A program made the position numbers and the translations under genes. A stretch of DNA of 37,259 nt from an uncultured Verrucomicrobiota bacterium (GTDB lineage: Bacteria; Verrucomicrobiota; Verrucomicrobiia; Limisphaerales; UBA9464). Numbering within the stretch: the stretch's first letter is position 1; every line of letters begins with the position of its first letter. Positions 3,212 to 32,958 of the stretch are shown here, in pieces. The DNA is taken from assembly GCA_903854475.1 (NCBI GenBank), contig CAINWP010000141.1:1-37259 (forward strand), in the 5' to 3' direction. The notes beneath the pieces are model-generated. The model saw only the letters and a program-made list of their open reading frames with translations. It searched no databases and was not told the origin of the DNA.

Positions 3212-3243
3212 ATTCAACCATCCACCCCGCCGCCTCCACGCTA

Positions 3244-4218: not shown

Positions 4219-4239
4219 GCCTGATCCATCCATCGACCC

Positions 4240-5094: not shown

Positions 5095-6623
5095 GCCCGC
5101 CGAGTCCGTCCGTGCTACCGCTGAGTTCGACGAATCCGACGAACCCACCCCTGTTGTCCCTGAGCGGGATCGTGAAGTCCTTTCCCGGTGTGCGGGCCTT
5201 GCGTGGGGTAAACCTGCGACTGCATGCCGGAGAGGTCTTGGCTGTGCTCGGTGAAAACGGCGCGGGCAAGAGTACCCTAATGAAGATTATCGGAGGGGCC
5301 CACACCGCCGATGCGGGCACGTTGGCTATCGACGGCCAGGAGCAACGATTTCAATCCCCGCAAGAATCCCGCGCGGCCGGCGTGGCGGTCATTTATCAAG
5401 AGTTCAACTTGGTTCCGGCGCTCACGGCGGTGGAGAACATTTTCCTGGGCCAAGAAGTGACCACCGGAGGCTTCGTGGCCCGCCGCCGCGAACGGGAGCA
5501 GGTGGCGGCCCTGTTTCAACGGATGGGCGTCGAAGTGGACTTGGATGAGCCCTGCCGACGGCTCAGCACCGCTCAGCAGCAGTTGGTCGAAATTGCCAAA
5601 GCCTTAATCCACAAGGCCCGGATCTTGGTCATGGACGAACCCACCGCCGCGCTGACCTCGCACGAAGTGGAGAAGCTCTTCGCCCTCATGCGGGAATTGC
5701 GGCGTCAGGGCATGGGGATCCTCTACATCAGCCACCGGCTGGAGGAGGTCTTCACCATCGCCGATCGTGTGACTATTTTGCGCGACGGGGGCAATGTCTC
5801 TGACTGCCCCATCCATGCGATTACCCGCGATCAAATGATCGAACGCATGGTGGGTCGACCGCTGGATCAGGAGTTCCCGTCCCGTCGTGTAAAACGGGGC
5901 GGTCCGCGGTTGGAGGTGTCGGGCTTGCGCCGGGGAAAGGCCGTCCAAGGCATTTCCTTTCAGGTGCACCGGGGTGAGATCTTGGCGCTGACTGGATTAG
6001 TTGGGGCCGGTCGGACCGAGACGGTTCGGTTGGTGTTTGGGGCTGATCCGAGAGACGCCGGAGAAATTCGGCTCGATGGCCAGGTGCTCGATATCCGGTC
6101 GCCCCGCGACGCCATCGACGCAGGAATGGGTCTCCTGACTGAAGATCGCAAACTGCAAGGCCTGGTGCTGAGGCATCCCATCCGGGAGAATTTTAGTTTA
6201 CCCAACTTGCGTCGGTGGTGCCGTCGGGGCTTTGTGCAGCGTCGGCGCGAGCGTTCCGAGTTGGATCGGTACATCGCGGCCCTCCGCATTCGCCTGTCTG
6301 ACCCGGAGGAGCGTGTCGGCAACCTCTCGGGCGGTAATCAGCAGAAGGTGGTGTTGGCCAAGTGGTTGGCCCGCGACTGCGAGGTGCTGATCTTCGACGA
6401 GCCGACCCGAGGGATCGATGTCGGCGCGAAGTACGAGATTTACCTGCTCATGAACGAACTGGTGGCCGCCGGAAAATCCATTCTCATGATTAGCTCCGAA
6501 TTGCCGGAGGTGCTGGGGATGGCCGACCGGATCCTGGTCCTGCACGAAGGCCGGATCACCGGCGAAATCACCGATGTGGCTCAGGCTACCCAGGAACAAA
6601 TCCTCCAATTGGCCCATGCCTGA
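5091..6623 (+). CDS. sugar ABC transporter ATP-binding protein (RbsA/MglA type, two ATPase domains)
   Basis: Walker A GENGAGKST, signature LSTAQQQLVEIAKAL and LSGGNQQKVVLAKWLA, Walker B ILVMDEPTAAL and VLIFDEPTRGIDVGAK; ATGA overlap with the preceding stop. Confidence 0.93.
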   Translation: MSPPSPSVLPLSSTNPTNPPLLSLSGIVKSFPGVRALRGVNLRLHAGEVLAVLGENGAGKSTLMKIIGGAHTADAGTLAIDGQEQRFQSPQESRAAGVAVIYQEFNLVPALTAVENIFLGQEVTTGGFVARRREREQVAALFQRMGVEVDLDEPCRRLSTAQQQLVEIAKALIHKARILVMDEPTAALTSHEVEKLFALMRELRRQGMGILYISHRLEEVFTIADRVTILRDGGNVSDCPIHAITRDQMIERMVGRPLDQEFPSRRVKRGGPRLEVSGLRRGKAVQGISFQVHRGEILALTGLVGAGRTETVRLVFGADPRDAGEIRLDGQVLDIRSPRDAIDAGMGLLTEDRKLQGLVLRHPIRENFSLPNLRRWCRRGFVQRRRERSELDRYIAALRIRLSDPEERVGNLSGGNQQKVVLAKWLARDCEVLIFDEPTRGIDVGAKYEIYLLMNELVAAGKSILMISSELPEVLGMADRILVLHEGRITGEITDVAQATQEQILQLAHA

Positions 6624-7944
6624 ACCCATGAAACCTGCACGATGGCTGGCCGACTACGGCATGATTTTGGTTCTGGTGCTGCTGTGCGCGTTTTTCAGCG
6701 CGGTGACATACAGCGAGCAATCGCCCACAGGCGAGGCCGCCGCGGGTCAGGTGGTCGAGGCCGTGTTGAAGGCGGTGCCCAAAGGAGCCCGCGTTTTAGT
6801 TGTAGCCAGCGACCAGCCCGGAGATGCGGTTTTCGCGGCCCGCGTTGAACGTGATCTCACGGCAGCCGGCGCGCGGGTTCTCGCGACCGTGACCGGTGAA
6901 CCCCGGAACGCCCGCGAGGCCCTCCAGAAAATCCAGGCAGCCGGCGGGTTGCTGGATGCGATCGCTGCCACCCGTGTGGCCGGAGGTTGGCGGCTTATCA
7001 CGGACCTCGCCTCCGATTTCCCGTCGCTGGGATCGCCCCGGGTCATCACACCGGCCAGCTACCGGTGGCCCCATTTTCTGAAGTCCGAGAACCTTCTCAA
7101 TATCGCCAACCAAATTGCCGTGATCGCCATCGTGGCCATTGGCATGACTTTGGTCATTATCACCGGCGGCATCGATTTATCCGTGGGGAGCCTTATCGCG
7201 CTGTCGGCCGTGTTGGCGGCGGGTTTCATCCGCGACCGGGCCGGGGGTATGAGCGCCTCGACCGGCGGCATGGTGCTCGGGTGTTTGTTGGCCATTGTGG
7301 TGTGCGGGGCGGTCGGAGGTTTCTCTGGCCTGATGATCACCCGATTCGCCATCCCACCCTTCATCGTGACGCTGGCCATGATGCTCGTCGGCAGCGGCTT
7401 GGCCTACATTTTGGCCCAGGGACAATCGATTTATCAAATTCCCGATTCCTTTGTTTGGCTCGGGCGTGGTGCAGACCTCTTCGGGCTTCCCAATGCCGTG
7501 GTGCTCCTGCTGGTGCTGTACGCCTTGGCCCAGGTGCTCATGTCGCGCATGAAGCTCGGACGTTACTTGTACGCCGTCGGTGGCAATGCGGAGGCGGCGC
7601 GGCTTTCGGGCGTGCCCGTCCGTCGCGTGCTCCTCTTCGCCTATGTCGCCAGTGGGTTGCTTGCGGGACTCGGGGGCGTGATCATGGCTTCGCAGCTCAA
7701 GAGCGGATCACCGACCTATGGCAACATGTATGAGTTGTACGTGATCGCCGCCGTCGTCGTGGGCGGTACGAGCCTGAGCGGGGGTGAGGGCCGGATGCTG
7801 GGGACGTTGACTGGAGCCTTCACCATCGCCGTCATCCAGAATGGCATGAACCTGACCAACGTGGAGAGTTACACCCAGAAGGTGGTGCTCGGGTTGGTCA
7901 TCTTGGGGGCTGTGCTCCTCGACAAGCTGCGCCAAGCCCGTTGA
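6616..7944 (+). CDS. sugar ABC transporter permease (RbsC type) with an extra domain after TM1
   Basis: LLNIANQIAVIAIVAIGMTLVIITGGIDLSVGSLIALSAV and GRYLYAVGGNAEAARLSGVPVRRV typical of RbsC; overlaps the end of the ATPase gene. Confidence 0.9.
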   Translation: MPEPMKPARWLADYGMILVLVLLCAFFSAVTYSEQSPTGEAAAGQVVEAVLKAVPKGARVLVVASDQPGDAVFAARVERDLTAAGARVLATVTGEPRNAREALQKIQAAGGLLDAIAATRVAGGWRLITDLASDFPSLGSPRVITPASYRWPHFLKSENLLNIANQIAVIAIVAIGMTLVIITGGIDLSVGSLIALSAVLAAGFIRDRAGGMSASTGGMVLGCLLAIVVCGAVGGFSGLMITRFAIPPFIVTLAMMLVGSGLAYILAQGQSIYQIPDSFVWLGRGADLFGLPNAVVLLLVLYALAQVLMSRMKLGRYLYAVGGNAEAARLSGVPVRRVLLFAYVASGLLAGLGGVIMASQLKSGSPTYGNMYELYVIAAVVVGGTSLSGGEGRMLGTLTGAFTIAVIQNGMNLTNVESYTQKVVLGLVILGAVLLDKLRQAR

Positions 7945-8062
7945 GTGATTCGACAATCCTGCCGATCTCTGCGCCTCTTGATTTTCCGTCTCTATTCTCA
8001 GGCTCGAACTGCGATCCCGAATCGCATCCTATTCCGACTTCGATCTAGCTAATTCCTGTCCC

Positions 8063-10297
8063 ATGAAATCGATCATCCAGTCCGCTCTCCTTGCCGTGGT
8101 GCTCGCGACCGTCGCCGGTGCCCGCGCGGCCGACGACCTCCTCATCGCCGATTTCGAAGGCCCCGACTATGGCGCATGGAAGGCCACCGGTGAGGCGTTT
8201 GGCAGCGCCCCAGCCCGCGGCGCACTAGCCGGGCAGATGCAGGTCGAGGGTTTTCTCGGGAAGGGGTTGGTCAACACATTCCGCGGCGGCGATGACGCGA
8301 CCGGTACCTTGAGTTCACCGCCCTTCAAGATCGAGCGGCGCTTCCTCGCCTTCCTCATCGGCGGGGGGCACAACGAGCAGAAGCTCGCCCTGCAATTGCT
8401 GGTGGATGGCCAGGTGGTCCGTTCGGCGACGGGCCCGAATGACCGCAGTGGCGGCAGCGAGGCGTTGGCCCCGGACTCTTGGGACGTCGCCGATCTGGCC
8501 GGTCAGACGGCCTCCATTCGCATCGTCGACGAGGCCAAGGGCGGTTGGGGACATCTTAATGTCGATCACCTCCGGCAAACCGACGCCCGACCGAAAGGCC
8601 TGCAGAAGAACGTTGAGCGGTCCATCCCGGTGACGGCTCGTTATTTGCACCTGCCCATTCGCAACGGGGCTCCCAAGCGCGTGGTGACCTTGATGGTGGA
8701 CGGGAAGCCCGTCGTTCGGAATGACATCGAGTTGGCCGATGGCGCGGCCGATTGGTGGGCGCCCATGGACGTGTCGGCCTGGCGGGGAAAGACCGTCACC
8801 CTCCGTGTGGACGCATTGCCTGCCGATTCCACGGCGTTGTCGGCGATCGAACAGGGTGACGGTTTCAAGGATGAGGGATCGATGTACCGCGAGCCGTTGC
8901 GCGGGCAGTTCCATTTTTCGCCAAAGCGCGGTTGGAACAACGATCCGAACGGCATGGTCTTCTACAACGGCGAGTACCACTTGTTCTTCCAGCACAATCC
9001 GTACGGTTGGGATTGGGGCAACATGCACTGGGGTCATGCCGTCAGTCGCGATCTCGTCCACTGGGACGAGCTCGGAGACAAGCTCCTGCCCGACGACATG
9101 GGACCGATGTTCAGCGGCAGCGCCGTGGTGGACTGGAAGAACACCAGCGGCTTCGGCAAGGACGGCAAACCGCCGCTCGTGCTTATTTACACTGCCGCCG
9201 GCAATCCCGCGGTGCAGTGCATCGCCTACAGCACCGACGGCCGTAAGTTCACCAAGTTTGCGGGCAACCCCGTTCTGAAAGAAATCACCGGAGGCAATCG
9301 CGACCCCAAGGTGATGTGGCATGAAGCCTCCCGGAAATGGGTGATGGTGCTCTACGTGGAGTGGCAGAAAAAGCACACCATCCACTTCTTCAACTCGCCC
9401 AATTTGCGCGAGTGGAGCCTGGCCCAAATCGTCGAGGGCGATGCCCCCGGCAAACCCTATCTCTTCGAATGCCCCGACTTCTTCGAGTTGCCCGTGGACG
9501 GAGATCCGACCCTTCGGAAGTGGGTGTTGCTCGCAGCCAACAGCGCTTATGCCGTGGGCACCTTCGATGGCACCCGCTTCATGCCCGAGCAGAGCAATTT
9601 GGCCGGTCAGCGAGGTAAGGGTTTCTACGCGCCTCAGACCTTCAGCGACATTCCGGGTGCCGATGGGCGTCGCATTCAAATGGGTTGGTTCCAGACAGCG
9701 ACCAAAGGCATGACCTTCAACCAGTCCATGACCGTGCCGCTGGAGCTCCGGTTGCTGACCACGGTGGACGGGCCACGACTGACCTTCACGCCGGTGCGCG
9801 AACTGGAGGCGCTGCGGGCCGGCTCCCAACGCCTGGGTTCGTTGTCATTGGCTCCCGATGCCAAGAATCCGCTGGCGAAGGTGCAGGGGGAATTGCTGGA
9901 GGTTCGCGCCGTTCTGAAGCCCGGACAAGCGACCCACGTCGCGTTCAGCATTCGCGGGGTGCCTGTGGTTTACGACGTGAAGCAGCAAGAACTGGTGGTG
10001 GCTCAACATCGCGCGCCGGCGCCGCTGCACGACGGCACCTTGGACCTGATCATTTACTGCGACCGCACCGGCTTGGAGGTCTTCGCCAGCCGCGGGCTTT
10101 GCTACGTTCCCATGCCCGTCCAGCCGAAGCCCGAAGACCGTTCGCTTTCGCTGGAGGTCCAGGGAGGCACCGTCGCCTTCAAGAACCTTGAGGCTCATGA
10201 ACTGCAATCTGCCTGGACTGCGCGGAAAGTCGTGACGCCGCCGGGTTCAGTTTCTCCGCCCCGTCCGGCGTTCCCAGCCAGCCCGACGCGGCCATGA
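8063..10297 (+). CDS. GH32 glycoside hydrolase (levanase/fructan hydrolase) with N-terminal extra domain
   Basis: GH32 motifs GWNNDPNGMVFYNGEYHLFFQHNP, GGNRDPKVMW, FECPDFFEL; signal peptide. Confidence 0.93.
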   Translation: MKSIIQSALLAVVLATVAGARAADDLLIADFEGPDYGAWKATGEAFGSAPARGALAGQMQVEGFLGKGLVNTFRGGDDATGTLSSPPFKIERRFLAFLIGGGHNEQKLALQLLVDGQVVRSATGPNDRSGGSEALAPDSWDVADLAGQTASIRIVDEAKGGWGHLNVDHLRQTDARPKGLQKNVERSIPVTARYLHLPIRNGAPKRVVTLMVDGKPVVRNDIELADGAADWWAPMDVSAWRGKTVTLRVDALPADSTALSAIEQGDGFKDEGSMYREPLRGQFHFSPKRGWNNDPNGMVFYNGEYHLFFQHNPYGWDWGNMHWGHAVSRDLVHWDELGDKLLPDDMGPMFSGSAVVDWKNTSGFGKDGKPPLVLIYTAAGNPAVQCIAYSTDGRKFTKFAGNPVLKEITGGNRDPKVMWHEASRKWVMVLYVEWQKKHTIHFFNSPNLREWSLAQIVEGDAPGKPYLFECPDFFELPVDGDPTLRKWVLLAANSAYAVGTFDGTRFMPEQSNLAGQRGKGFYAPQTFSDIPGADGRRIQMGWFQTATKGMTFNQSMTVPLELRLLTTVDGPRLTFTPVRELEALRAGSQRLGSLSLAPDAKNPLAKVQGELLEVRAVLKPGQATHVAFSIRGVPVVYDVKQQELVVAQHRAPAPLHDGTLDLIIYCDRTGLEVFASRGLCYVPMPVQPKPEDRSLSLEVQGGTVAFKNLEAHELQSAWTARKVVTPPGSVSPPRPAFPASPTRP

Positions 10298-11238
10298 ACT
10301 TCGGATCCCGCCGCTACTTTTGCATCGGCCTCGGGGAAGTTCTGTGGGACCTCCTGCCGGGCGGTCGCCAATTGGGCGGAGCGCCCGCCAACTTCGCCTA
10401 CCATGCGCATGCGCTCGGCGCTGAGTCTCTCGTGGTCTCTCGCGTGGGCCGTGACGATCTGGGTCGGGATCTCCTTGAGCGCCTGAATGCTCTGGGTCTG
10501 GCGACCTCCGGGATCTCCGTCGATCCAGTCGCGCCCACCGGGTCCGTCAGCGTGACCCTCGATCCGTCGGGGCAGCCCGCTTACACCATCCACACCGAGG
10601 TCGCCTGGGACCTCCTGGAGGCCGGGCTAGAGGTTTTGCGAGTCGCGGCTGCAGCGGATGCGGTGTGCTTCGGGACATTGGCCCAGCGCCACCCGGTGGC
10701 CCGCGAGTCCATCCGGCGCGTGCTGCAGGCGACTCGGCCCGATGCCTTGCGCATCTTCGACATCAACCTTCGCCAACGGTTTTGGTCGCGCGAGGTGATC
10801 GTCGAGTCTTTGGCATTGGCCACTGTGCTGAAGTTGAATGACGAGGAGTTGCCTATACTCGCGGACTTGCTCGGTTGGCCGGGTGACGACGACCAGGGAC
10901 TGCTGGCGCGGTTGGCCCAGCAATTCGATTTGCGGGCTGTGGCCCTGACGCGAGGGGCTCGGGGCAGTCTCTTGTGGACGGCGGGCCGCAGTTGGGACTG
11001 GCCTGGTTCGGAGCTGAAGGTGGCCGACACCGTGGGTGCGGGCGACAGTTACACGGCGGCCCTCGCTCTGGGACTGCTGTCGGGGAAGGCTCCTGAAGAC
11101 ATTCTCCGCATCGCCCATCGAGTCGCAGATTTTGTCTGCACTCAGCCGGGAGCCACACCGCCCATGCCTGCGGATCTTGCCGCTGAATTGGTGGGCACGA
11201 GAAAAACCGAGGGGAATTCTTCGGGAAACCGAAGTTGA
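10294..11238 (+). CDS. PfkB-family carbohydrate kinase, probable fructokinase
   Basis: LGEVLWDLLPGGRQLGGAPANFAYHAHALG; C-terminal DTVGAGDSYTAALALGLL; ATGA overlap with GH32 stop. Confidence 0.9.
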   Translation: MNFGSRRYFCIGLGEVLWDLLPGGRQLGGAPANFAYHAHALGAESLVVSRVGRDDLGRDLLERLNALGLATSGISVDPVAPTGSVSVTLDPSGQPAYTIHTEVAWDLLEAGLEVLRVAAAADAVCFGTLAQRHPVARESIRRVLQATRPDALRIFDINLRQRFWSREVIVESLALATVLKLNDEELPILADLLGWPGDDDQGLLARLAQQFDLRAVALTRGARGSLLWTAGRSWDWPGSELKVADTVGAGDSYTAALALGLLSGKAPEDILRIAHRVADFVCTQPGATPPMPADLAAELVGTRKTEGNSSGNRS

Positions 11239-15035: not shown

Positions 15036-15154
15036 AGGAAAAGCCCATCCACAACTTGGCCGCTTCCGTCTACGACCGACTGCTCAAGCGGACCAGATCT
15101 GGCGCCGAGGACTTCCAATTCGTGCTCATGCGCCGCCCCAAATGCTCTGCCTGA
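15032..15154 (+). pseudogene. truncated AbiEii toxin (nucleotidyltransferase), N-terminus only
   Basis: GTGA overlap with abiEi; reads VKEKPIHNLAASVYDRLLKRTRSGAEDFQFVLMR then unrelated RPKCSA-stop; N-terminus resembles AbiEii (NLAASV..RLL....GEDFQ..L.R). Confidence 0.7.
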
Positions 15155-16449
15155 ACGTTCAACCCGTTCAGAATCGCCTCGGCGACCGGTTCCGGGAAGA
15201 GTTTGGGGATCTCGGCGCGCACTTTGTCTAAGACCCGGGGCGTCTGGTCGAGGATGTCGGCGATGATGGAGCGCATTCCAGGCATACCGCACCGGTTGGC
15301 TGTCTCAAGCCAGTGACGGCATTCGATCTCGGCGATCCGGTAATGGCGATTCTTGCCCAGGACCGCCATGGCCAAGGTTGCCTTTTGGGCGGACAGCTTC
15401 CCACGGCCATGTCCGATGACCGGATGGGCCGACAGCACGTCATAGCGCGGGGTGAGTTCGTAGTCGCCCTGCGGCAGCAGAAAGAGGCTGAAGTTCTTCG
15501 CATGCCCATCGATGGCCGCCAGCAGCCAGAAGATCACCTGGGTACGCAGGAAGCTCGTGCGGTCTTCGTCGGCCCGGAGGGATCCCTGCAGGAGGTTCAT
15601 GATCTTCAGGATTCCCGGGCCACCATCGACCTCGTATTTGAGGTGGGGAGGCGTCGCCGTGGCCTGGCACAAGTCCTCTTGGGGAAGACGTAGCCACCGG
15701 GTTTTGTCGGATGACAACCGGCGGTCGAAGCGTTCGACCACGAGCACCTGATAGTCGCCGAACCGCCGAATTTTCGAATTCGCCGTCGGGATCCCGTAGG
15801 CCTTCAGGATCCGACCGCAAAGCCATTCATTCTCGACCGAGGAGGACAAATCGATGCTCTGCGGTCCGGCTCCGATCGGTAATTTGAGAATGTGCGTGGT
15901 AGGCGTGGCTCCGGTGGGTCGATGCCAGGCTCCCTCGTGCCAGAGCAGGGCCGTCTTTTCCTGCGCCCCGGCGAGGCTGATGCGGAAGTGATCCTCGGAT
16001 GGAGGGTCTCCGTCCCGCGGGTCCGCCAGGGTTGCGGCCAGCAGCCGGGCGACCTGGGCAGAACCGAGTCGATCACCCGTGATCCGCGACAGGTCTCCGG
16101 GCAAGGCATCCTCCGGGAGCAGTTGCAGCGCCCCGACGCAGTCGCGTCCGACCGCTTGGAGCAAGTCGAAGGGGTCGATGCTGGGAACCTGGAACCGGCG
16201 CTGGATGCGTTCGCGGATCCCTCGGTTATCGGGAAGAAGATTGTCGAAGAACGCCTCGACTCCGTCTCGGAAGGGTTCGCCGGACGGTCGCAACGGCAGC
16301 GACAGCGAAATGGGCCGGGCATGGGGAGAACCCAGCCAACGGTCGTCATAGGCGAATGTATGGGTTCCCCGCGTGGGGGTCCGCCAAAGACCGACCCGCT
16401 CGCCGTTCATCCAAATGGACAGGGCTCTGGAATAACGAGGACGGGGCAT
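15070..16449 (-). CDS. hipA: HipA-family serine/threonine kinase toxin
   Basis: HipA motifs FFDNLLPDNRGIRERIQRRF, RISLAGAQEKTALL, HILKLPI, ENEWLCGRILKAYGI, VVERFDRR, LPQEDLCQA, DGHAKNFSLFL. Confidence 0.93.
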   Translation of the reverse strand: MPRPRYSRALSIWMNGERVGLWRTPTRGTHTFAYDDRWLGSPHARPISLSLPLRPSGEPFRDGVEAFFDNLLPDNRGIRERIQRRFQVPSIDPFDLLQAVGRDCVGALQLLPEDALPGDLSRITGDRLGSAQVARLLAATLADPRDGDPPSEDHFRISLAGAQEKTALLWHEGAWHRPTGATPTTHILKLPIGAGPQSIDLSSSVENEWLCGRILKAYGIPTANSKIRRFGDYQVLVVERFDRRLSSDKTRWLRLPQEDLCQATATPPHLKYEVDGGPGILKIMNLLQGSLRADEDRTSFLRTQVIFWLLAAIDGHAKNFSLFLLPQGDYELTPRYDVLSAHPVIGHGRGKLSAQKATLAMAVLGKNRHYRIAEIECRHWLETANRCGMPGMRSIIADILDQTPRVLDKVRAEIPKLFPEPVAEAILNGLNVQAEHLGRRMSTNWKSSAPDLVRLSSRS

Positions 16450-19574: not shown

Positions 19575-20324
19575 TTAACCTCCCGCGAGCACTGTCTCGA
19601 TCTTGTTCTGCAAATCGGCGCTGATGCGTTCCACCGGCCGTTCGGCGTCGATGAGGTCGAAGCCGTAGTGGCGTTGCATACGCCGGAAGGTGTCGCGCAT
19701 GCGGCTCTGGTATTGCAGGAAGCTGTCGAACATGTCGCGCGACAGGCCTAGGTCCATGCCGCTTTCCCAGTAGTCGAGCGCCTGCTGCTTGGCGAAGACT
19801 CGCTGGACTAGTTTCTCGGGCCGCACCTCGAGGTAGAACACCGCATCGGGAACGAGCGCGATCCCGTACAAGTTGCGTAGCCACTTCTCGTCCACACCTC
19901 GGACGAGATCGCGCGCCATCAAGGTGTAGATGTAGCGGTCGGCCAGCACCATCGAGCCCGCCCTCAGCGCCGGCAGGATGGTGTTCTCGAGTTGGTCGGC
20001 GAAGTCGGTCGCGTAGAACAGCGAGAGCGTGGTGCGCGAGAGAATGTTGCCCTGCTGGGCGGCCTCGAGTTCTTCACTGACTAACGAGGAGCGTTTGAGA
20101 CCCACTTGAATGGTGTGGTGGCCCGAGGCCTCCAGCCATTGGATGAGTCGGGCGATTTGGGTGGATCGGCCTGAGCCGTCGGCTCCCTCGACCACGATGA
20201 GTTTGCCGGAAAGTTTTTCGATCTCCACCCCGGGCAGACCCAGACCAAAGAAGCGCTTGGGCGTGACCTTCGGAACGAGCACTTCCGCGTCGTCCGTTGG
20301 AGAGAATTTGGGTTTCCTGGCCAT
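19575..20324 (-). CDS. thymidylate kinase-like P-loop protein (variant Walker A)
   Basis: LIVVEGADGSGRSTQIARLIQWLE, FYATDFADQ, VLADRYIYTLMARDLVRG. Confidence 0.82.
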   Translation of the reverse strand: MARKPKFSPTDDAEVLVPKVTPKRFFGLGLPGVEIEKLSGKLIVVEGADGSGRSTQIARLIQWLEASGHHTIQVGLKRSSLVSEELEAAQQGNILSRTTLSLFYATDFADQLENTILPALRAGSMVLADRYIYTLMARDLVRGVDEKWLRNLYGIALVPDAVFYLEVRPEKLVQRVFAKQQALDYWESGMDLGLSRDMFDSFLQYQSRMRDTFRRMQRHYGFDLIDAERPVERISADLQNKIETVLAGG

Positions 20325-20332
20325 ATCTCGAG

Positions 20333-21016
20333 TTATTTGGTGGCGGTGAAGGTGGGTAGATCGATACGGGTCTCAACCAGGCGGCGGACGAGTCCCTGCT
20401 GCTCCTCAATGCGCTGGTTGGCATCCATGACCACGAAGTTGAACTCAGTGCTCATGGCCAAGTATTGCTCGAAGATGCGGCCCTGAAAGATGCGGAAGCT
20501 TTCGTACGGATCGCTGGAAAGGCCCAGGTCCATGCCCGCCTCGTGGTGCTTGAGGGTCGGTCGATTATCCAAGATGCGGTTGAGCGAGACTTCGAGATGC
20601 GAGCGGAAGAAGAAGGTGATGTCGGGCAGAGCAGCAAAGCTGTAGAGGCCGCGTACCCAGGCCTGGGGGCATCCGCGAACGACGTCCCGGGCGAAGGCCG
20701 TGAAGATGTACCGGTCGCAGAGCACCAAATACCCCGCCTTGAGCAGCGGCAAGAGTTGGCGCTCGTAGCGGTCAGCGAAGTCGGTGGCGTGGATGAGGGA
20801 AAATGTGGTCGGCGTCAGCAAGTTCTGCTTCTTGCCCTTGCTGGTGGCGCTTTTGACCAGTGCCGACGAATTCCACTCGCTGAAGAAGACTTTGAATCCG
20901 CGCATCTCCAACCAGCGCTTGAGGAGGTAAATCTGGGTGGATTTGCCCGAGCCATCGAGCCCCTCGACGGCAATGAGCCGACCCTCGAAGCCCAGTTCCG
21001 CGAACGTCTTCGTCAT
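20333..21016 (-). CDS. thymidylate kinase-like P-loop protein
   Basis: LIAVEGLDGSGKSTQIYLLKRWLE, IHATDFADRYE, VLCDRYIFTAFARDVVRG; paralog of the neighbour. Confidence 0.85.
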   Translation of the reverse strand: MTKTFAELGFEGRLIAVEGLDGSGKSTQIYLLKRWLEMRGFKVFFSEWNSSALVKSATSKGKKQNLLTPTTFSLIHATDFADRYERQLLPLLKAGYLVLCDRYIFTAFARDVVRGCPQAWVRGLYSFAALPDITFFFRSHLEVSLNRILDNRPTLKHHEAGMDLGLSSDPYESFRIFQGRIFEQYLAMSTEFNFVVMDANQRIEEQQGLVRRLVETRIDLPTFTATK

Positions 21017-21184
21017 GACGCAGACGACTCTATCTGAAGCTACGGCCCGTGGATAGGGAGCAGTCAAATGGGTGTCGGATGGAAACACCGGCTCGATGAT
21101 TTGTGACCCTAATGTCACTCGATCGTCAGCGATACTGTTGAGGATCCGGCTTGAGCGCCGGGATGCCGCGTTGCATCTTCTGAA

Positions 21185-22042
21185 ATGGCCCATCGAGTAG
21201 AAGTGTCTTGTGGGTCTCCGTATAGACGGGGCTTCACTCTCATCGAATTGTTGGTGGTCATCGCCATCATCGCCATTTTGGCTTCATTGCTGTTGCCTTC
21301 GCTGGCTAAGGCCAAGGGGCGTGCCCAAGGCAGTGCTTGCTCCAGTAATTTCCGGCAGCTTCAGATTTGTGCGCAATTATACGCCGATGACAATTTAGAC
21401 GTCCTCGCACCGAACGAGGCGTTCTTGTCCGGCGGCGGCGGTGGGCGGGAGGCGTGGAACATTCGTTCTACTTCTTGGCTTCAAGGCAATGCGTACACAG
21501 ACACATCCGCGTCGAATCTCGCGGTGGGTGTCTTCTGGAAATACAATCAAACTCCGGGAATCTACCTGTGCCCGTCCGATCGTTCGACGGTCCGCGATCA
21601 GGGGTTTATCCGCCGCAATCGCAGCGTGTCCATGAGCGCGTACATGAATTTGGTGACGCAGCCCACGGATGAGAATTTCTCAAAGTGTTGGCATAAGATG
21701 AGTCAGATCACCGATCCAGGACCGTCACGGGCCTTGTATTTTATCGATGAGCACGAAAAAAGCATTCAGCAGGGTGCCTTCGGTATTAATGCGCCGAATC
21801 GGTGGACCCTCTTTGGGACGTCGTTGCCGACTTGGATTAGCTTTCCCGGATTGCGGCATGCAGGCGCGGCAACAGTGTCTTTTCCCGATGGGCATACGGA
21901 GTCTTGGCGCTGGCGGGATCCAGCGACCTTGGCCGCGGCCCAGAAATCCGGGTGGTTGGTACTTCAGCCTGGATCCGGTCCTGCTGATGTCGATCTCCAG
22001 CGCATCCAGGCGGCAGTGCCGGCTCAGGTGCCCATCCCGTGA
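21185..22042 (+). CDS. type II secretion/prepilin-like protein with N-terminal methylation motif
   Basis: [47 protein letters not shown]-terminal [17 protein letters not shown]. Confidence 0.88.
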
Positions 22043-24458: not shown

Positions 24459-27400
24459 TTAAAAATCGGCCGACAGGGTCAGGCTGACCGTGATGCCGCG
24501 CTTGTAGCTGCGGAAGACGTACTGGTCGCCGTAGCGTTCCTCGCGGGTACCGAGGTCGTTGATGAGGGTCTGGCGGATCTCCGGATCCAGCAGGTTGCGC
24601 GCGCCGAAGCGCATTTTCCAACGCCGTCCGAGACGCTGGTTGACGAAGAAGTCGAGCGTGTTGATGGGTTGCTCGTAAATGTTCGGGCTGCCTTGGCCGC
24701 CATCGACCGCCAGTCGTTGGCCGCTGCGGGTGAAGGACACCGAGAAGGTGGTACGGCTCCGGGCGATTTCCCAGGCGAGGTCGGAGTTGAGGATGTACTT
24801 GGGTTGGTCGAACAACGGGCGATTGTAGAGGCCGACGCCATTACCCACCGGATAAAACACATCGACCTCGGAACTGATTAAGGCCGCGTTGCCGCCGAGA
24901 GTAATGCCCGCCAAAAGAGGGTCGAGGGCGGCCAAGTTCTTGCGCGCTTCAAACTCGAAACCCGAAACGATGGCGCTGGCATTGTTGGTGAAACTCACGA
25001 TGCCTGCGGCGTTGTCGGCGATGTAGGGCTCAACCGGGTTGAGAATGTTTTTTCGGAAATAGGCCGCCGAGAGGAGTTCGCCGGGCCGGGGAAACCACTC
25101 TACCCGCGCATCGTAGTTCTCAATTTCTGAACGCTTGAGGTCGGCATTACCGCGGTAGGCCAAGCCGTCGAAGGTGTCAAAGTACTCGAAGGGGGCGAAC
25201 TCGCGATAGGTGGGGCGAGCGATCGTCTGCGACCAGTTGAGCCGCAAATTGAAGTTGGAGGTGATCGGGAATACCCCACCGATGGAGGGAAGCACATCCG
25301 TTGTGGCGATGTTGCCGCTGGAGGAAGATCCCAGAATCCGGCTTCGAGGAAGCACTTCGGCCTTGAGGTCGGTTTGTTCGAATCGGGCCCCGCCCACGAG
25401 GCGGAACTTCGGTAGCACAAATAAATCAGCCATGGCGTACACGGCGGGAATGGACTGGGTTCCATCGTAGCCGTAGCCGTCGAAGGGCAATCCGGAGCGC
25501 AGGAAGGTGGCGTTGGGGAAGTAGTAGGCCGTGCGCGAGTTGGCTCCCGATCCCGTGGCGTTGGTGATGAATTGCTGGCCCTGGAAGTTGAGGACCGAGT
25601 TGGCGTAGCCGACCACATCGGGTTGATTGGCACCGGTGGTCTGGCTGATTTCGTACTCGAAGCGTTGTTCACGCAATCGGCGTTCGGATTCGAGGATGTT
25701 GCCGCCGACTTTGATGGAACTCTCGAGGCCATTTCCGGGCGTGAAGGGGATCGTGAGGTCGCTGCGGAAGTTCCAGCTCTTGTCCTGTGAGTCGCGGAAG
25801 AAGCGGGAAGGCTGGTTGATGTTGGGCAGCTCCGCCGACTGGGCGATGACGTTGGTGAAACCATTGCCCGACGGAGAGACGATCATCGGGAAGATGCGTT
25901 CGTCGGGGGAATTCTCGCCGGTGCCCGAACTCGAGAAGCTCCAGTCCAGTTGGGTGGATCCCACTTCGCGGAATTCATGGCGACCCTTGAACTGGAAGTT
26001 GCGCAAGTAGCGCTCGCGGTAGGTCAACTGCTCGATACGGGTCCGCTCTTCGGATCCCGGTTGGAACTGGTTGATCGTCTGCCCCGTCTCTTCGGTGATA
26101 TATTGCTGGGCGCTTTGGTTGTTGAGGAAGCTGAAGGACAATTCATGCCCGGGCATCAACTCCATGGCGGTGCTGGCCACGGCACCCCATCCGACGTTTA
26201 TGATCGACTGATCGCGTCGGAATTCGGAGGTGCGGATAAGTGGGCCCCCGTCTACCGGATCGGTGCCGTAAGAATAGCGACCGCGGAAGGCATTCTCGTA
26301 GAACTGGAATTGGCGATCGTGATTGAAGGTTCCGAACCAGCCAAAGCGTCGGCCGAAAAGCCACGTGGTGTCGCCGCTCGAGACCGCGAAATTGGAGTTT
26401 GGCCCCGGTTGGCCCATCGACGGGGCGAAGGTGGTGTTGTTGAAAGAACGCAAGGCCGCGTCGTACTTTTGGGCCAAGGCCAGTCGCTCGGCACCCGCTG
26501 CTTGCTGGGTGGTGTTGCGCCACGGACGCTGAGCATCGGTGATGATCGACGGATCGATGAGTGCCTTTGAGGGCAGCGCTCTGGAACCATCATCCATCGC
26601 CCAGAAATCATTGGCGCCACCCGGAATCTTCAAGAAGCCCTCGTTCATTGTTGCCGAGCTGTTGAGCCCGGTTCCGGCGGAGACCGTGGTGAAGCCCTTG
26701 GCTGGGAAGGATTTGGTGACGATGTTCACTGCGCCGCCGGCAAATCCGCCCTGAAGATCGGGAGTGAAGGTCTTGCTCACCACCACCCGGTCAATCATGG
26801 CGGCGGGGATTAGGTCAAGTTGAGGCGCCCGGCGTCGAGGGTCGGCACTCGGAAGCTCTGCACCATTCAGGGTGGCGATGTTGTACCGGTCATTCAGGCC
26901 GCGGATGACGATCTGGCGGTTGTCCGTCGCCACCACGCCGGTGATTTTGGTGGTGATTTGTGAGGCGTCGCCGCCACCGGTCCGCGCGATTTGCTCTGCG
27001 CTGATGGCTTCTTGTGACGTGGCCGCGTTCTTTCGCTCTTCCAACACGGCCGCCACGGTACTGGGCTTGGTGGTCGCGTCATCAAAGGCCGACTTGGCCG
27101 CGGTGGCGGAAGCGGTGGACTTAGAAGCACCCAAAGTGCCGGCACCTGTACCGGGTTTGCCCTGGATGGGGCGGACCGGTGCCGCGTCGGGCTTGCGGAC
27201 TTCGGCCTTGAAGAAATTGCCCGCGCCGCCCCCTTGGGCGGGGGGCGCATCGGAACGGGCGGCCGTCGCGGTCGGCGGTGCGGCCGTGGCCGGCGCGGTG
27301 GCAGTCGGTGGGGCTGCGGTCTCCTCGACGATGTCGCTCGCTTTGGGCTTGGGAATCTCCGGTGAGGGTTCCGGAGGCTTGGGCTTCGGTTTGGGTTTCT

Positions 27401-27554
27401 CCGGCGGACGGATGCCGGTGATTTGATAAATCGCCTGCGGCACGAACCCAGCCCGGTGGGCCAAATAGGCCAGACCACCCAAGGCTAGGACGTGGACGAT
27501 CATCGAGATGATCAGACTCGAGCGGTCCGTCTTCTTTTTGGCGTTGCGGGCCAT
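24459..27554 (-). CDS. TonB-dependent receptor with a TonB-type N-terminus (TM helix plus Lys-Pro linker) fused to plug and barrel
   Basis: N-term SSLIISMIVHVLALGGLAYLAH then RPPEKPKPKPKPPEPSPEIPKPK; plug RQIVIRGLNDRYNIATLNGAELPSADPRRRAPQLDLIPAAMIDRVVVSKTFTPDLQGGFAGGAVNIVTKSFP; barrel ending ...GITVSLTLSADF. Confidence 0.9.
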   Translation of the reverse strand: MARNAKKKTDRSSLIISMIVHVLALGGLAYLAHRAGFVPQAIYQITGIRPPEKPKPKPKPPEPSPEIPKPKASDIVEETAAPPTATAPATAAPPTATAARSDAPPAQGGGAGNFFKAEVRKPDAAPVRPIQGKPGTGAGTLGASKSTASATAAKSAFDDATTKPSTVAAVLEERKNAATSQEAISAEQIARTGGGDASQITTKITGVVATDNRQIVIRGLNDRYNIATLNGAELPSADPRRRAPQLDLIPAAMIDRVVVSKTFTPDLQGGFAGGAVNIVTKSFPAKGFTTVSAGTGLNSSATMNEGFLKIPGGANDFWAMDDGSRALPSKALIDPSIITDAQRPWRNTTQQAAGAERLALAQKYDAALRSFNNTTFAPSMGQPGPNSNFAVSSGDTTWLFGRRFGWFGTFNHDRQFQFYENAFRGRYSYGTDPVDGGPLIRTSEFRRDQSIINVGWGAVASTAMELMPGHELSFSFLNNQSAQQYITEETGQTINQFQPGSEERTRIEQLTYRERYLRNFQFKGRHEFREVGSTQLDWSFSSSGTGENSPDERIFPMIVSPSGNGFTNVIAQSAELPNINQPSRFFRDSQDKSWNFRSDLTIPFTPGNGLESSIKVGGNILESERRLREQRFEYEISQTTGANQPDVVGYANSVLNFQGQQFITNATGSGANSRTAYYFPNATFLRSGLPFDGYGYDGTQSIPAVYAMADLFVLPKFRLVGGARFEQTDLKAEVLPRSRILGSSSSGNIATTDVLPSIGGVFPITSNFNLRLNWSQTIARPTYREFAPFEYFDTFDGLAYRGNADLKRSEIENYDARVEWFPRPGELLSAAYFRKNILNPVEPYIADNAAGIVSFTNNASAIVSGFEFEARKNLAALDPLLAGITLGGNAALISSEVDVFYPVGNGVGLYNRPLFDQPKYILNSDLAWEIARSRTTFSVSFTRSGQRLAVDGGQGSPNIYEQPINTLDFFVNQRLGRRWKMRFGARNLLDPEIRQTLINDLGTREERYGDQYVFRSYKRGITVSLTLSADF

Positions 27555-27563
27555 GACGGTTCT

Positions 27564-28016
27564 TTATTTCGCAGCGCCCGCGGTGTCCGTCGCGAGGCCG
27601 ATCTTGGTCACATTGGCCCGTGTTAGGATGTCGAGAACTTGAACCACCTTCTGGTAGTTCACGTTCTCGTCGCCACGCACCACGACGCTCAGGTCTGGGT
27701 TGCTCTTGCGGAAGCGGATGATCTCATCCTCAAGCTTCTTGAGGGTGATGGGCTCGGCGTTGAAGTAGATGTTTCCCGCGGCATCGACCGTGACATTGTT
27801 AATGTCTTGTTTGGTTTGGTTCTGCGGCGGCTGCTGCGCGGCCGAGGGCAGGTTGATGTCGATGTCGTTGGTCGAGGGCGCTGTGGTGATGATGAAGATC
27901 ACCAGAAGCACGAAGGCCAAATCCAGCAGCGGGGTGATGTTGAGTTCACCCATCGCATGGTGATGGGATGCGGAATATTTTTTGCGTCCACGACGCCCGG
28001 CGGCTGCTGCGCTCAT
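27564..28016 (-). CDS. exbD: ExbD/TolR-family biopolymer transport protein
   Basis: MGELNITPLLDLAFVLLVIFIITTAP TM with conserved Asp; C-terminal VVVRGDENVNYQKVVQVLDILTRANVTKIGLAT. Confidence 0.93.
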   Translation of the reverse strand: MSAAAAGRRGRKKYSASHHHAMGELNITPLLDLAFVLLVIFIITTAPSTNDIDINLPSAAQQPPQNQTKQDINNVTVDAAGNIYFNAEPITLKKLEDEIIRFRKSNPDLSVVVRGDENVNYQKVVQVLDILTRANVTKIGLATDTAGAAK

Positions 28017-28801
28017 GGGCGATGGTTCGGATTTTGAGCCTGCTGACCGAAGTTAATGTTCCGCAGCGCGTCGGCGATTTCGTCCGCCAGAGCGCGGTTG
28101 TCGACGTACTGGTGCTCCAGGTCGGTCATCACCTCGGAGTTGAAGTTATCTAGCTCCTGCGTGATGCCGCGGATGGCGGTGATCATTAGGTTGTAGGCGA
28201 ACATCGCAGGGATGGCCACGAAGAGACCGACGACCGTGGCGATGAGTGCGCCGGCGACACCCGGAGCCATCGCAGTGAGGCTCGCGCTGGCCGCCATGGC
28301 AATGCCAGAGAAGGTTTCCATCACGCCCCAAACCGTGCCTAGAAGACCGATGAAGGGGCCGCCCGAAACGGCTGTGGTCAGGATGATCATGCCCTTTTCT
28401 AGCGACAACGCCTCGGCGCTGACCGCTCGCTCTAGGGCCACTTGAACGGACTGGAAGGACTCGACACTAATGCGCTTCTTACCTTTTACCGTCACCGGGT
28501 TGTTCTCCAAGTGGTACTCCACTTCACCGCAACCGGAGGTGTAGATCTCGAAGGCCGGGGCTCCGGAAAACTCTCGCTTGTCGCGGAAGAGCGTCATCGG
28601 ATCCTTGGACTCCCGATAGGCGGCCAGGAACTTCCTGCTCATGGCGCGGGCCTTCAAGATTTGACGGCCTTTGGTGATGATCACCGACCAGGAGACCATC
28701 GATACTAGGATCAGGGCCGAGATGGTCATCTTGCCCTCGATCGTCGCCTTCTCGAAAGCGAAGGTGAGGGCGTTGGCGAGGATGGGTTGGAACGGGTCCA
28801 T
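28013..28801 (-). CDS. exbB: ExbB/TolQ/MotA-family proton channel protein
   Basis: GPFIGLLGTVWGVMETFSGIAMAASASLTAMAPGVAGALIATVVGLFVAIPAMFAYN; overlaps exbD by 4 nt. Confidence 0.93.
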   Translation of the reverse strand: MDPFQPILANALTFAFEKATIEGKMTISALILVSMVSWSVIITKGRQILKARAMSRKFLAAYRESKDPMTLFRDKREFSGAPAFEIYTSGCGEVEYHLENNPVTVKGKKRISVESFQSVQVALERAVSAEALSLEKGMIILTTAVSGGPFIGLLGTVWGVMETFSGIAMAASASLTAMAPGVAGALIATVVGLFVAIPAMFAYNLMITAIRGITQELDNFNSEVMTDLEHQYVDNRALADEIADALRNINFGQQAQNPNHRP

Positions 28802-28845: not shown

Positions 28846-29181
28846 TTACTTCGCGGTGGCCCCAGCGGGCGCGTTTGTTCCGAAGAGGCTAGATCCGAAG
28901 TTGGACCGTTCGCCGAAGGACTCGACGGAGCCCTTTTGAATGCGCACCACGAATTCCTTCATGTCACCGACGCCCTTGTTGAGGAGGTTGTAGGTGAGGA
29001 ACTCCACGTCGCCCTGGGCCGAGATGGCGTGTGGGCGACCCAGAGTCTTCACAACCTCGTCGCGAGACATTCCTAGGGAGAGATGGTTGAGCTTAGCCGA
29101 GGAGGAGGCGCAGCCGACCATCCATGCGGCGGCAGCGCAGGTGGCGGCGAGTACGGTGATCCGGCGGATCGAAGCGTTCAT
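28846..29181 (-). CDS. small lipoprotein with SmpA/OmlA (BamE-like) domain
   Basis: Lipobox AAWMVGCASS; LSLGMSRDEVVKTLGRPHAISAQGDVEFLTYNL. Confidence 0.72.
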   Translation of the reverse strand: MNASIRRITVLAATCAAAAWMVGCASSSAKLNHLSLGMSRDEVVKTLGRPHAISAQGDVEFLTYNLLNKGVGDMKEFVVRIQKGSVESFGERSNFGSSLFGTNAPAGATAK

Positions 29182-30278: not shown

Positions 30279-30938
30279 TCAGCGTTGAGCCGAAGCGCGG
30301 CGCCGGAAGAGGAGGGCTCCGAACCCGGCCAATCCTACGAGGCTGAGGGCTACGGAACTGGGCTCAGGCACGGATGAGTACTGGATGTTGTCGTACAAGG
30401 CGCCGGAAGGCAGCAGCACCATGTCGACGCCGCTGATCGGTGCCGCCAAGGCGGCGGTGAAGCCGGGGCTCGTCTGATTGGCCGGAATGGACGCGAGCAA
30501 GGTGTTGCCAGTGGAACTAACTCGGTAGAACTGAATCGTTGCACCGGGGTCTCCATAGGTGTCCTTGTCCAGCGTCACCGAGAACTGGGCCAGCATTTGC
30601 GGTGAACTAAACCGCACGAGGGTCGGTTGGAACACTCCGTCGAGCGCCACCAACCCCGACGGAGCGCTACCGCGGTCGTAGAACGCCGGGTTGCGCACCA
30701 GGATAGGGCTGGAGCCGTCGAAGAGGCGCCAGCGTTCGGTGCCTGCGATTTCGTCGCCGTCAGTATTAAAGTCGGGAGACCATGTGGCCTCGCCGAAGCT
30801 AACACCCGTCGGCGCGGCCTGGTTGGCCGGTGTCCCGGAGTTCAGGGCATCGAAGGTGATCGAGATGGACTGCGCTTGGGACGCGGTCGCGAGGAGCAGG
30901 CCCGCCATCAGAGCGGCCGAGAATGAAGGGTTGATCAT
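30279..30938 (-). CDS. PEP-CTERM sorting-domain secreted protein
   Basis: Signal peptide; C-terminus VPEPSSVALSLVGLAGFGALLFRRRASAQR. Confidence 0.9.
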   Translation of the reverse strand: MINPSFSAALMAGLLLATASQAQSISITFDALNSGTPANQAAPTGVSFGEATWSPDFNTDGDEIAGTERWRLFDGSSPILVRNPAFYDRGSAPSGLVALDGVFQPTLVRFSSPQMLAQFSVTLDKDTYGDPGATIQFYRVSSTGNTLLASIPANQTSPGFTAALAAPISGVDMVLLPSGALYDNIQYSSVPEPSSVALSLVGLAGFGALLFRRRASAQR

Positions 30939-30969
30939 AGTGAAAGGTGGTTCGGGAGAAGCGCCCGAT

Positions 30970-32958
30970 TCACTTGGTCACCGGCACGCCGCCCAAGACG
31001 GCCTGCATGACACTGAAAAACACATCGGTGTTGTCGATCGATCCCCGGAACAGGCTCGCGCCACGTCCTTCGGCATAGACCGGAATATCCGAGGCCGTGT
31101 GAACGGCCTGGCTGCCCGCCGCGGCGCTGGGAACCTGACCGGTGACGAGGAAGGTTCCGTTGGTGTCCCGATTCAACGGACCCGCCGGGTAAGTGCTCAA
31201 GGGGGCGACCTTGCCGAAGGGCTGCTGGCTGTCTTGCAGCGGCAGCGGATTGGTCAGCCAGTCTTCGTAGCGGTCGGCGTTGGCGGCGTAGCCGATGAGC
31301 ATCTTGTTGTCGGGATCGGTGGTGGTCGGATAGCCGTCATCCGCCATCGTGTAAACCGGGAAACCGGCGTTGTCGTAGGTACCCACCACCGACTCGCGGA
31401 TCGCGTTATTGGTGTTGCCAATGCCTTGGGACAGTTCGGTGAGCTTGGCGTTGGTGACGCGGGAGGCGCCGATGATGTTGACGCCCGCGCATTCATGGTC
31501 AGCGCAAACGACGATCAACGTGTCGGGGTCGGTGGCCAAAAATGCCCGGGCGGTCGCAACGGCACGGTCGAACTCCAAGGTGTCGAGGAGCCAGCGCTCG
31601 GTGTCCATGGCGTGGGCCTGCTTGTCGATTGAGGCGCCTTCCACCATCAGGGTGAATCCGTTTTTGTTCTTGGAGAGCACTTGCAAGGCCTTGGCGGTCA
31701 TCTCGTCAAGCATGGGCTGGTCGGGGAAACCGAAATCATCCACGACGGTCGAGGCGCCGCGGCGCTTGTCGATCTTGTCCTTGGCCACGTTCATGTTGGA
31801 GAACGAGAACAGTCCCAGCAGGCGGGTGGTGTTCGAGGGCAGGAGGTCGAGCGAGGTCTTGTCTGGCGCATAGCTAAAACCCGCCTTGATGAAGTCGCTT
31901 AGCAAATCGCGTGAGGGATCGGAGGCACCCGCAGGGACTCCCCAGCGGCTGGCGATATCCTGCGGCAGGACGTAGTCACTGGAGGTGGCGCGAGCCGACC
32001 CATTGGTGCCGGCGCCCAAAAACCATTTACGTCCGCCGCCCAAGAGCACGCGGAGGCCGCGGTTGGTCACGCCCTCGTCCAGGTATTGATCGCAGATGCC
32101 GGTGCCGGCGCCGCGGTTGGAGGTGTGGATGGCGAAGGCGGCCGGAGTCGCGTCGAACACATCGGCCGTCGTGACGATGCCCAAGGTCTTGCCGGAGGTT
32201 CGCAATAAATAGGATCCGAGGTATTCGATGCGGGGATTGTCAAACGCCGCCGCCGTGTCATCGGGGAAAACGCCCTCTTCGTTGTTGTTGGCCTTGTTGC
32301 CAGTGGAGTAGCAGTGGGCGCCCGGGGCGGAATCCGTGATGATCGAGTTCAACGAGTGAGTCTGGGCGATCGCTGTGTAAGGCATCGAATCGATGGCCAT
32401 CTTGGAGTTGGCTTTTCCGAGTTGCACCCCCTGGCCTATGATCCGCGCAGCCGTTCGGTGAGCGATCCCGAAGCCATCGCCGATCAGGTAAATAACATTC
32501 TTTGCGCGCCGACCCTGCGGAACGGCAGCAATGACCTCGAAATTACCAAAAGCTTGCACGGTCTTTCCATCCGACTGGGTCGCCGACACGCTGAAGGTGT
32601 GGATGCCCGGCTTGGTGTTGGAGTAGGCCCGGAAGGCGACCTGAACACTGTTGGTCACGGTGACCTTGTCTGCTTTTGTGAAGCTCAGCGACGCGTCGCT
32701 CACGGGAGCGCCGTCCACAGAAAATACAGAGCCGGTGATCGTGGTTCCGGCATCCGGCCGAACGGTTGCCGCCAAATCAAAACGTTGTCCGGCGAAGAAC
32801 CGGGCGATGATCGGGGGTGTGGTGTCGCCGAAGCTGAACAGGGCGCTTGGCGGAGTGAGTCGGGAGACCGTCGGATCAGCGGAGGCGGTTCCGAGGGTGC
32901 CCAGGGTTGCTGCGCAGAGGCCCAGCGAACCCACTAGTCGGGTCAGGGAGTGTTTCAT
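30970..32958 (-). CDS. alkaline phosphatase (PhoA-type superfamily)
   Basis: KNVIYLIGDGFGIAHRTAARII, ITDSAPGAHCYSTGNKANN, MVEGASIDKQAHAMD, VVCADHECAGV. Confidence 0.9.
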   Translation of the reverse strand: MKHSLTRLVGSLGLCAATLGTLGTASADPTVSRLTPPSALFSFGDTTPPIIARFFAGQRFDLAATVRPDAGTTITGSVFSVDGAPVSDASLSFTKADKVTVTNSVQVAFRAYSNTKPGIHTFSVSATQSDGKTVQAFGNFEVIAAVPQGRRAKNVIYLIGDGFGIAHRTAARIIGQGVQLGKANSKMAIDSMPYTAIAQTHSLNSIITDSAPGAHCYSTGNKANNNEEGVFPDDTAAAFDNPRIEYLGSYLLRTSGKTLGIVTTADVFDATPAAFAIHTSNRGAGTGICDQYLDEGVTNRGLRVLLGGGRKWFLGAGTNGSARATSSDYVLPQDIASRWGVPAGASDPSRDLLSDFIKAGFSYAPDKTSLDLLPSNTTRLLGLFSFSNMNVAKDKIDKRRGASTVVDDFGFPDQPMLDEMTAKALQVLSKNKNGFTLMVEGASIDKQAHAMDTERWLLDTLEFDRAVATARAFLATDPDTLIVVCADHECAGVNIIGASRVTNAKLTELSQGIGNTNNAIRESVVGTYDNAGFPVYTMADDGYPTTTDPDNKMLIGYAANADRYEDWLTNPLPLQDSQQPFGKVAPLSTYPAGPLNRDTNGTFLVTGQVPSAAAGSQAVHTASDIPVYAEGRGASLFRGSIDNTDVFFSVMQAVLGGVPVTK

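Follow-up and report, generated by a model that had tools for sequence, protein, structure and literature searches.

Several systems offer points of comparison for a gene in which a TonB-type N-terminus is joined to a TonB-dependent receptor. The Ton system of Escherichia coli shares with it an ExbB/ExbD motor with channel residues, a TonB-type anchor with an essential His, a Pro/Lys-rich periplasmic linker, and a receptor composed of plug and barrel. Residues 43-54 of E. coli TonB bind ExbD via a D-box motif (PMC10907165). The route by which force passes from ExbBD to the plug is unsettled; the pulling, rotation, and wrap-and-pull models all include docking of TonB to the TonB box (PMC12905483), and in the wrap-and-pull model the C-terminal domain of TonB then detaches from the box, relieving tension (PMC12905483). 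The fusion differs from this system in that transducer and receptor form one chain, without a TonB C-terminal domain or a TonB box, and the release step is impossible. The Tol-Pal system (TolA-TolQ-TolR) resembles the locus in its motor, which gives TolQR-like scores, in having a trans-envelope force transducer, and in the SHLS anchor principle, but TolA ends in a soluble TolB-binding domain whereas the fusion would end in an integral outer-membrane receptor. Some Myxococcota annotations show TonB_C domains fused to receptors; the fused part there is the C-terminal TonB domain, in contrast to the N-terminal membrane anchor here.

Two operon types of the same bacterial order provide the nearest relatives of the two halves. 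The sister operons, exbB-exbD-tonB-exbD, encode the closest ExbB and ExbD (about 55-64% and 45-54% identity) and a TonB whose N-terminus is homologous to that of the fusion, but their tonB is a separate gene whose product, about 220-233 aa long, has a TonB_2 domain at its C-terminus, and a second exbD follows; one such operon (L058) occurs in the genus of the organism studied. The exbB-exbB-exbD-tonB-TPR-receptor operons are home to the nearest unfused receptors in the order, with a homologous plug and barrel (about 35-39% identity to the fusion studied). These receptors differ in carrying a signal peptide, a CarboxypepD_reg domain, and a TonB box, and are accompanied by a separate TonB with a TonB_C domain. 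An earlier note on the sequence had placed the fusion in the tonB slot of an exbB-exbD operon. Its account is corrected here in that the nearest source of the TonB part is the sister operon, and the receptor half derives from operons of another kind.

No report of a TonB-receptor fusion was found in the open-access literature searched, including passages of PMC12204202, PMC11658791, and PMC12905483, with subscription journals and preprints outside the scope. All parts of the fusion come from known families, and the combination is best regarded as a variation on the Ton system, not as a machine of a novel type.

Architecture of the fused gene and its operon

The window, a stretch of 37,259 nucleotides from an uncultured Verrucomicrobiota bacterium, contains the genes listed in Table 1. 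The earlier note had claimed a single 1031-aa reading frame joining a TonB N-terminus to a complete receptor in an exbB-exbD operon, with no TonB C-terminal domain between linker and plug, and both claims held. The frame has no internal stops and is third in the order exbB-exbD-fusion on one strand; neither TonB_C nor TonB_2 gives a Pfam match in the fusion. The arrangement typical of a receptor, a Plug domain followed by a C-terminal beta-barrel, is supported by Pfam matches above cut-off (Plug at residues 175-275, 2.8e-10; TonB_dep_Rec at residues 565-988, 6.6e-27) and by Foldseek comparison of the fusion model with solved receptors (PhuR, 2e-19; FepA, 3.9e-19; also PfeA, FhuE, and FecA). 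A sequence-profile search of solved structures gave no match, the family being too divergent. The full-chain structure prediction that the note had proposed, made with AlphaFold2 on 24 family members, gives a helix at residues 12-34, disorder to about residue 166 and beyond (pLDDT <50 across residues 36-234), and a well predicted barrel (pLDDT ~80-90), with the plug poorly modelled in the single-chain model.

Table 1. Features of the fused gene and its operon, in coordinates of the window
Feature	Position	Strand	Evidence
TonB N-terminus/TonB-dependent receptor fusion gene	24459..27554	(-)	Single ORF; Plug and barrel; full length kept in 37 genomes
TonB-type membrane anchor, residues 12-34, Ser17 and invariant His21	27453..27521	(-)	TonB-N HMM, HHalign, modelled helix
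D-box-like stretch, residues 39-51 (PQAIYQITGIRPP)	27402..27440	(-)	By eye against motif in PMC10907165
Linker, residues 36-165, Lys/Pro then Ala/Pro/Thr rich, disordered	27060..27449	(-)	pLDDT, length constancy
Conserved linker island, about residues 95-120	27195..27272	(-)	Pairwise identity, invariant residues
Plug domain, residues 166-284	26703..27059	(-)	Pfam Plug; identity among fusions
TonB-dependent receptor beta-barrel, ends in Phe1031	24462..26702	(-)	Pfam, AlphaFold2, Foldseek
exbD, channel Asp32 present	27564..28016	(-)	Pfam ExbD 1.2e-30; Asp in LLDLAF
exbB, channel Thr156 and Thr189, TM1 Ser37-Trp38	28013..28801	(-)	Pfam MotA_ExbB 2.5e-28
BamE-like small lipoprotein gene, probable first operon gene	28846..29181	(-)	Sub-threshold BamE match 2.4e-4

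The motor genes, of which exbB overlaps exbD by 4 nt, encode the one Asp (in ExbD) and two Thr (in ExbB) that mark the channel, and both Thr motifs are present in all 23 ExbB reading frames of the sampled fused operons. Wherever the DNA upstream of a fusion can be read, an exbB-exbD pair directly precedes the gene, in other families as well as within the genus. The BamE-like gene, 44 nt upstream of exbB, keeps its place before exbB throughout the genus's fused loci and in three genomes of a sister genus, but was not seen in other families; its product might help to assemble the tethered barrel.

Other genes of the window are recorded here as separate observations. By sequence, a likely fructan or sucrose utilisation cluster occupies 3208-11238 (+), with a periplasmic sugar-binding protein, an ABC ATPase and permease, a GH32 hydrolase (Pfam), and a PfkB-like kinase. 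A HipA-like kinase gene, identified by eye, lies at 15070-16449 (-), and two tandem thymidylate-kinase-like genes at 19575-21193 (-), the first matching Thymidylate_kin at 9.6e-20 and the second assigned by eye. Upstream of the fusion operon, at 30279-32958 (-), an alkaline phosphatase (Pfam 2.5e-69) and a PEP-CTERM protein are encoded beside an AraC-type regulator, a set that only some of the genus's loci contain. The AraC gene and the phosphatase were considered as clues to the substrate and dropped, being conserved only within the genus.

The anchor, the linker, and the TonB box

Homology of the fusion N-terminus to TonB was assessed with a profile ("TonB-N HMM") built from 15 TonB N-termini of the sister operons with the Pro/Lys linker removed. 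All 24 fusions examined score 20-46 bits with this profile (31.6 bits for that of the window), whereas 18 unfused relatives do not exceed 0.8 bits; not one of 1000 shuffled sequences reaches 10 bits, and 7 of 1000 block shuffles do so, with a maximum of 16. A chance match is ruled out because the fusions outscore both the unfused relatives and the shuffles. HHalign likewise aligns residues 2-54 of the fusion with the sister TonBs at 99.1% probability (E=1.2e-18), and these residues are homologous to real TonB N-termini.

The claim that Ser17, His21, and Leu28 keep the spacing of E. coli TonB held only in part across the family. All three residues are present in the window's protein, with Ala at position 32, the last Ser of SHLS, but among the 24 fusions only His21 is invariant; position 17 is Ser or Ala, position 28 is variable and merely mostly aliphatic, and the last Ser is not conserved, so that the match to the SHLS spacing amounts mostly to His21 plus Ser/Ala. 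The membrane helix with Ser-x3-His expected of a force transducer is nevertheless present, given Ser or Ala at position 17. The anchor is unlike a signal peptide because His21 is invariant and the anchor block is better conserved among fusions than the barrel (pairwise identity 0.47 and 0.39, respectively). Judged by sequence rule only, the N-termini contain an uncharged run of 22-26 aa, long enough for a transmembrane segment, without a conserved A-x-A site, and so do not qualify as cleavable signal peptides, unlike those of the unfused relatives. The N-terminus is very probably a TonB-type anchor and not a signal peptide, its uncleaved state in cells being inferred. Just after it, residues 39-51 fit 6 of 7 positions of the D-box motif of PMC10907165 by eye and are partly helical in the AlphaFold2 model, residues 42-50 making a plausible strand, again by eye only. 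This putative D-box would lie where E. coli TonB meets ExbD, an inference from sequence alone that is not backed by a model of the complex.

The linker of ~130 aa, rich in Pro and Lys, drifts in sequence whereas its length stays near constant: the distance from H21 to R174 is 148 +/- 8 aa (standard deviation, 24 fusions). The linker of E. coli TonB is of comparable length. Length and composition are those required of a periplasm-spanning segment, and the linker is long enough for the crossing, although actual spanning is inferred. It occupies the place of the TonB C-terminal domain, the signal peptide, the CarboxypepD_reg domain, and the TonB box. Within it, residues 101-125 reach a pairwise identity of 0.46, compared with 0.25-0.31 on either side; A103, P104, F115, and R120 are invariant, and the pattern RRAVAxDAPxAxGGxFFxDxR recurs in many families. 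This island could be a docking site or a site of cleavage or processing. An origin as a remnant of the TonB linker end was considered from a likeness seen by eye, but the HHalign alignment ends at residue 54 and the idea was not retained.

The plug is the most conserved part of the fusions (pairwise identity 0.62). In the unfused receptors, a consensus, RPEFYEMEEYEVTAE, stands at a fixed distance before the plug and represents the TonB box. With a leave-one-out matrix (PSSM) derived from the unfused receptors, 19 unfused relatives score 15.5-52 bits at one fixed position, whereas nothing in the whole linker of the 24 fusions exceeds 2.5 bits, which is within the shuffled range. The fusions have lost the signal peptide, the CarboxypepD_reg domain, and the TonB box, as judged from their sequences. 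The three other receptors of the same genome with readable N-termini have signal peptides and, by eye, short TonB-box-like sequences.

Distribution of the fusion and exchange of receptor bodies

The genome search that the note had proposed for proteins combining TonB_N with a receptor found an intact fusion in 37 genomes from 12 families of one Verrucomicrobiota order, of which 320 genomes were searched. Only frames joining both halves are counted; five further loci (G006, G012, G169, G178, and G315) are cut by contig ends or broken and stand outside the count. The matches fall into three classes: short TonBs, which match only over about residues 1-116; fusions, which match from residue 1 in frames of about 1000 aa; and receptors, which match only from about residue 160-170. 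Both classes occur in two genomes, G114 (contamination estimate 7%) and G167 (6%). An assembly artefact is ruled out by the recurrence of the fusion across the 37 genomes, among which one is assembled as a single 4.7-Mb contig. The fusion is absent from ~388 other genomes of the phylum, and no fusion outside the group appeared among the 80 best loci of a wider search, the sole sampling of other phyla. The carriers are lake and soil bacteria, and their named relatives are metagenome-assembled genomes, many from lakes. Because several species names in these records clearly do not fit the contig, the order can be given only as probably Limisphaerales/Pedosphaerales. Six loci (L142, L145, L147, L149, L158, and L172) are filed under Akkermansia muciniphila or Klebsiella pneumoniae but carry genes of this verrucomicrobial lineage, apparently in misnamed assemblies.

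Not every copy is clean. One in-frame TAG each is found in L103 (genome G230; in or near the linker) and L020 (G009; in the barrel), and L115 (G169) has a broken frame; sequencing errors, pseudogenes, and a reassigned codon are all compatible with these cases. No protein of G010 (88% complete) other than the fusion was found to match a Plug or barrel model. G055 and G296 (each 97% complete) likewise have no second Plug protein, though each shows one more partial match to the barrel. Other fused genomes, including that of the window, encode several ordinary receptors and TonBs.

The motor and the receptor parts have different histories. In a tree of concatenated ExbB and ExbD, 27 fused operons group as a single clade apart from 16 sister operons (support 100/98); this tree replaced an earlier ExbB tree mixing long branches and partial matches. 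A single clade of fused receptors, by contrast, was rejected: the constraint costs 353 log-likelihood units (AU p=9e-5), and well supported branches of the plug-barrel tree force at least six changes between fused and unfused labels. By sequence, the chassis thus has a single origin, and, as the receptor parts do not form one clade, bodies have repeatedly been traded between this motor-transducer chassis and ordinary TonB-box receptors. Locus L109 illustrates such an exchange. Over residues 1-180, its identity is mostly 50-80% with fused relatives, compared with about 17-27% for unfused ones. From about residue 360 onward, identity is 46-86% (mostly 60-80%) with unfused L126, L130, and L128, compared with mostly 25-60% for those fused relatives that share its chassis group. 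With a fusion N-terminus on an unfused-type body, it indicates that equivalent bodies occur both wired and unwired. Its genome has 7% contamination, so that a better assembly is needed for this single case. The tree result does not depend on L109 alone, because L100 and L022, too, fall among unfused receptors on starred branches.

Probable hard-wired transport and its rivals

The fusion is likely to be a hard-wired TonB-dependent transporter that needs no TonB box. In this reading, the uncleaved N-terminal helix would sit in the inner membrane, docked through His21 on the neighbouring ExbB/ExbD as TonB is; the linker would cross the periplasm; and the C-terminal half would be a complete receptor in the outer membrane with its plug inside the barrel. 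The motor would pull the plug directly through the linker, and the TonB C-terminal domain and TonB box would therefore have become dispensable and been lost. The bolder form, a natural single-chain transporter residing in both membranes in which ExbBD pulls the plug via a permanent covalent link, is only slightly less likely. Localisation and double-membrane topology, lack of cleavage, force transfer, and substrate import are all inferred. The note's proposal of a permanently wired receptor without a TonB-box handoff is thus supported by sequence, with function not shown. What it predicts was borne out: loss of the TonB box in all testable fusions, replacement of the signal peptide by a TonB-type anchor with invariant His21, a near-constant linker, an intact adjoining motor in every readable case, and long-term conservation. 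Against it, a covalently joined chain leaves no room for the detachment step of the wrap-and-pull model (PMC12905483), so that tension would have to be relieved by the motor, by the helix leaving ExbB, or by refolding of the plug; moreover, other TonBs occur in the genome, and the fusions of G009, G230, and G169 are interrupted or broken.

The most serious rival, already raised as processing into two pieces, is a periplasmic cut of the precursor that would leave an inner-membrane peptide and a free receptor. The disordered linker with its conserved island speaks for it, and sequence cannot exclude it. It is unlikely, however, as the freed receptor would have neither a TonB box nor a TonB C-terminal domain through which to be powered, yet its plug is the most conserved part, and linker length is held near constant.

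Considerably less probable is a powered envelope tether resembling Tol-Pal, with the barrel as an outer-membrane anchor and not a transporter. In its favor, ExbB and ExbD of the window score better with tolQ and tolR models (6e-45 and 6e-28) than with exbB and exbD models, and TolB_N was not found in its own genome. Against it, ordinary TonB-box receptors and the receptor bodies of the fusions are intermixed in the tree; the plug, for which an anchor would have no use, shows strong conservation; and the protein encoded alongside the same motor in the sister operons is of TonB type. Still less probable is that the N-terminus merely anchors the protein while a separate TonB powers the receptor. 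Three TonB_C proteins encoded elsewhere in the genome could support this, but the fusions have no TonB box, His21 is invariant, and no match to TonB_C occurs in G296, which does, however, encode one TonB_2 protein. That the N-terminus is a generic cleaved signal peptide, or the fusion an artefact of assembly, is suggested only by the hydrophobic N-terminus and is all but excluded by the spread over 37 genomes including the single-contig one, the TonB-specific match, and the absence of a conserved cleavage motif.

If the hard-wired reading is correct, recognition of the TonB box and release of TonB would not be essential steps of outer-membrane active transport. A chain unable to detach narrows the set of steps that can be essential, and force, length, and coupling could be tested by simple mutations in a one-chain system. 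The reading also implies that a beta-barrel can be assembled in the outer membrane with its own N-terminus retained in the inner one. L109, a natural domain swap, points to interchangeable receptor bodies, and the chassis would be able to acquire new ones by recombination.
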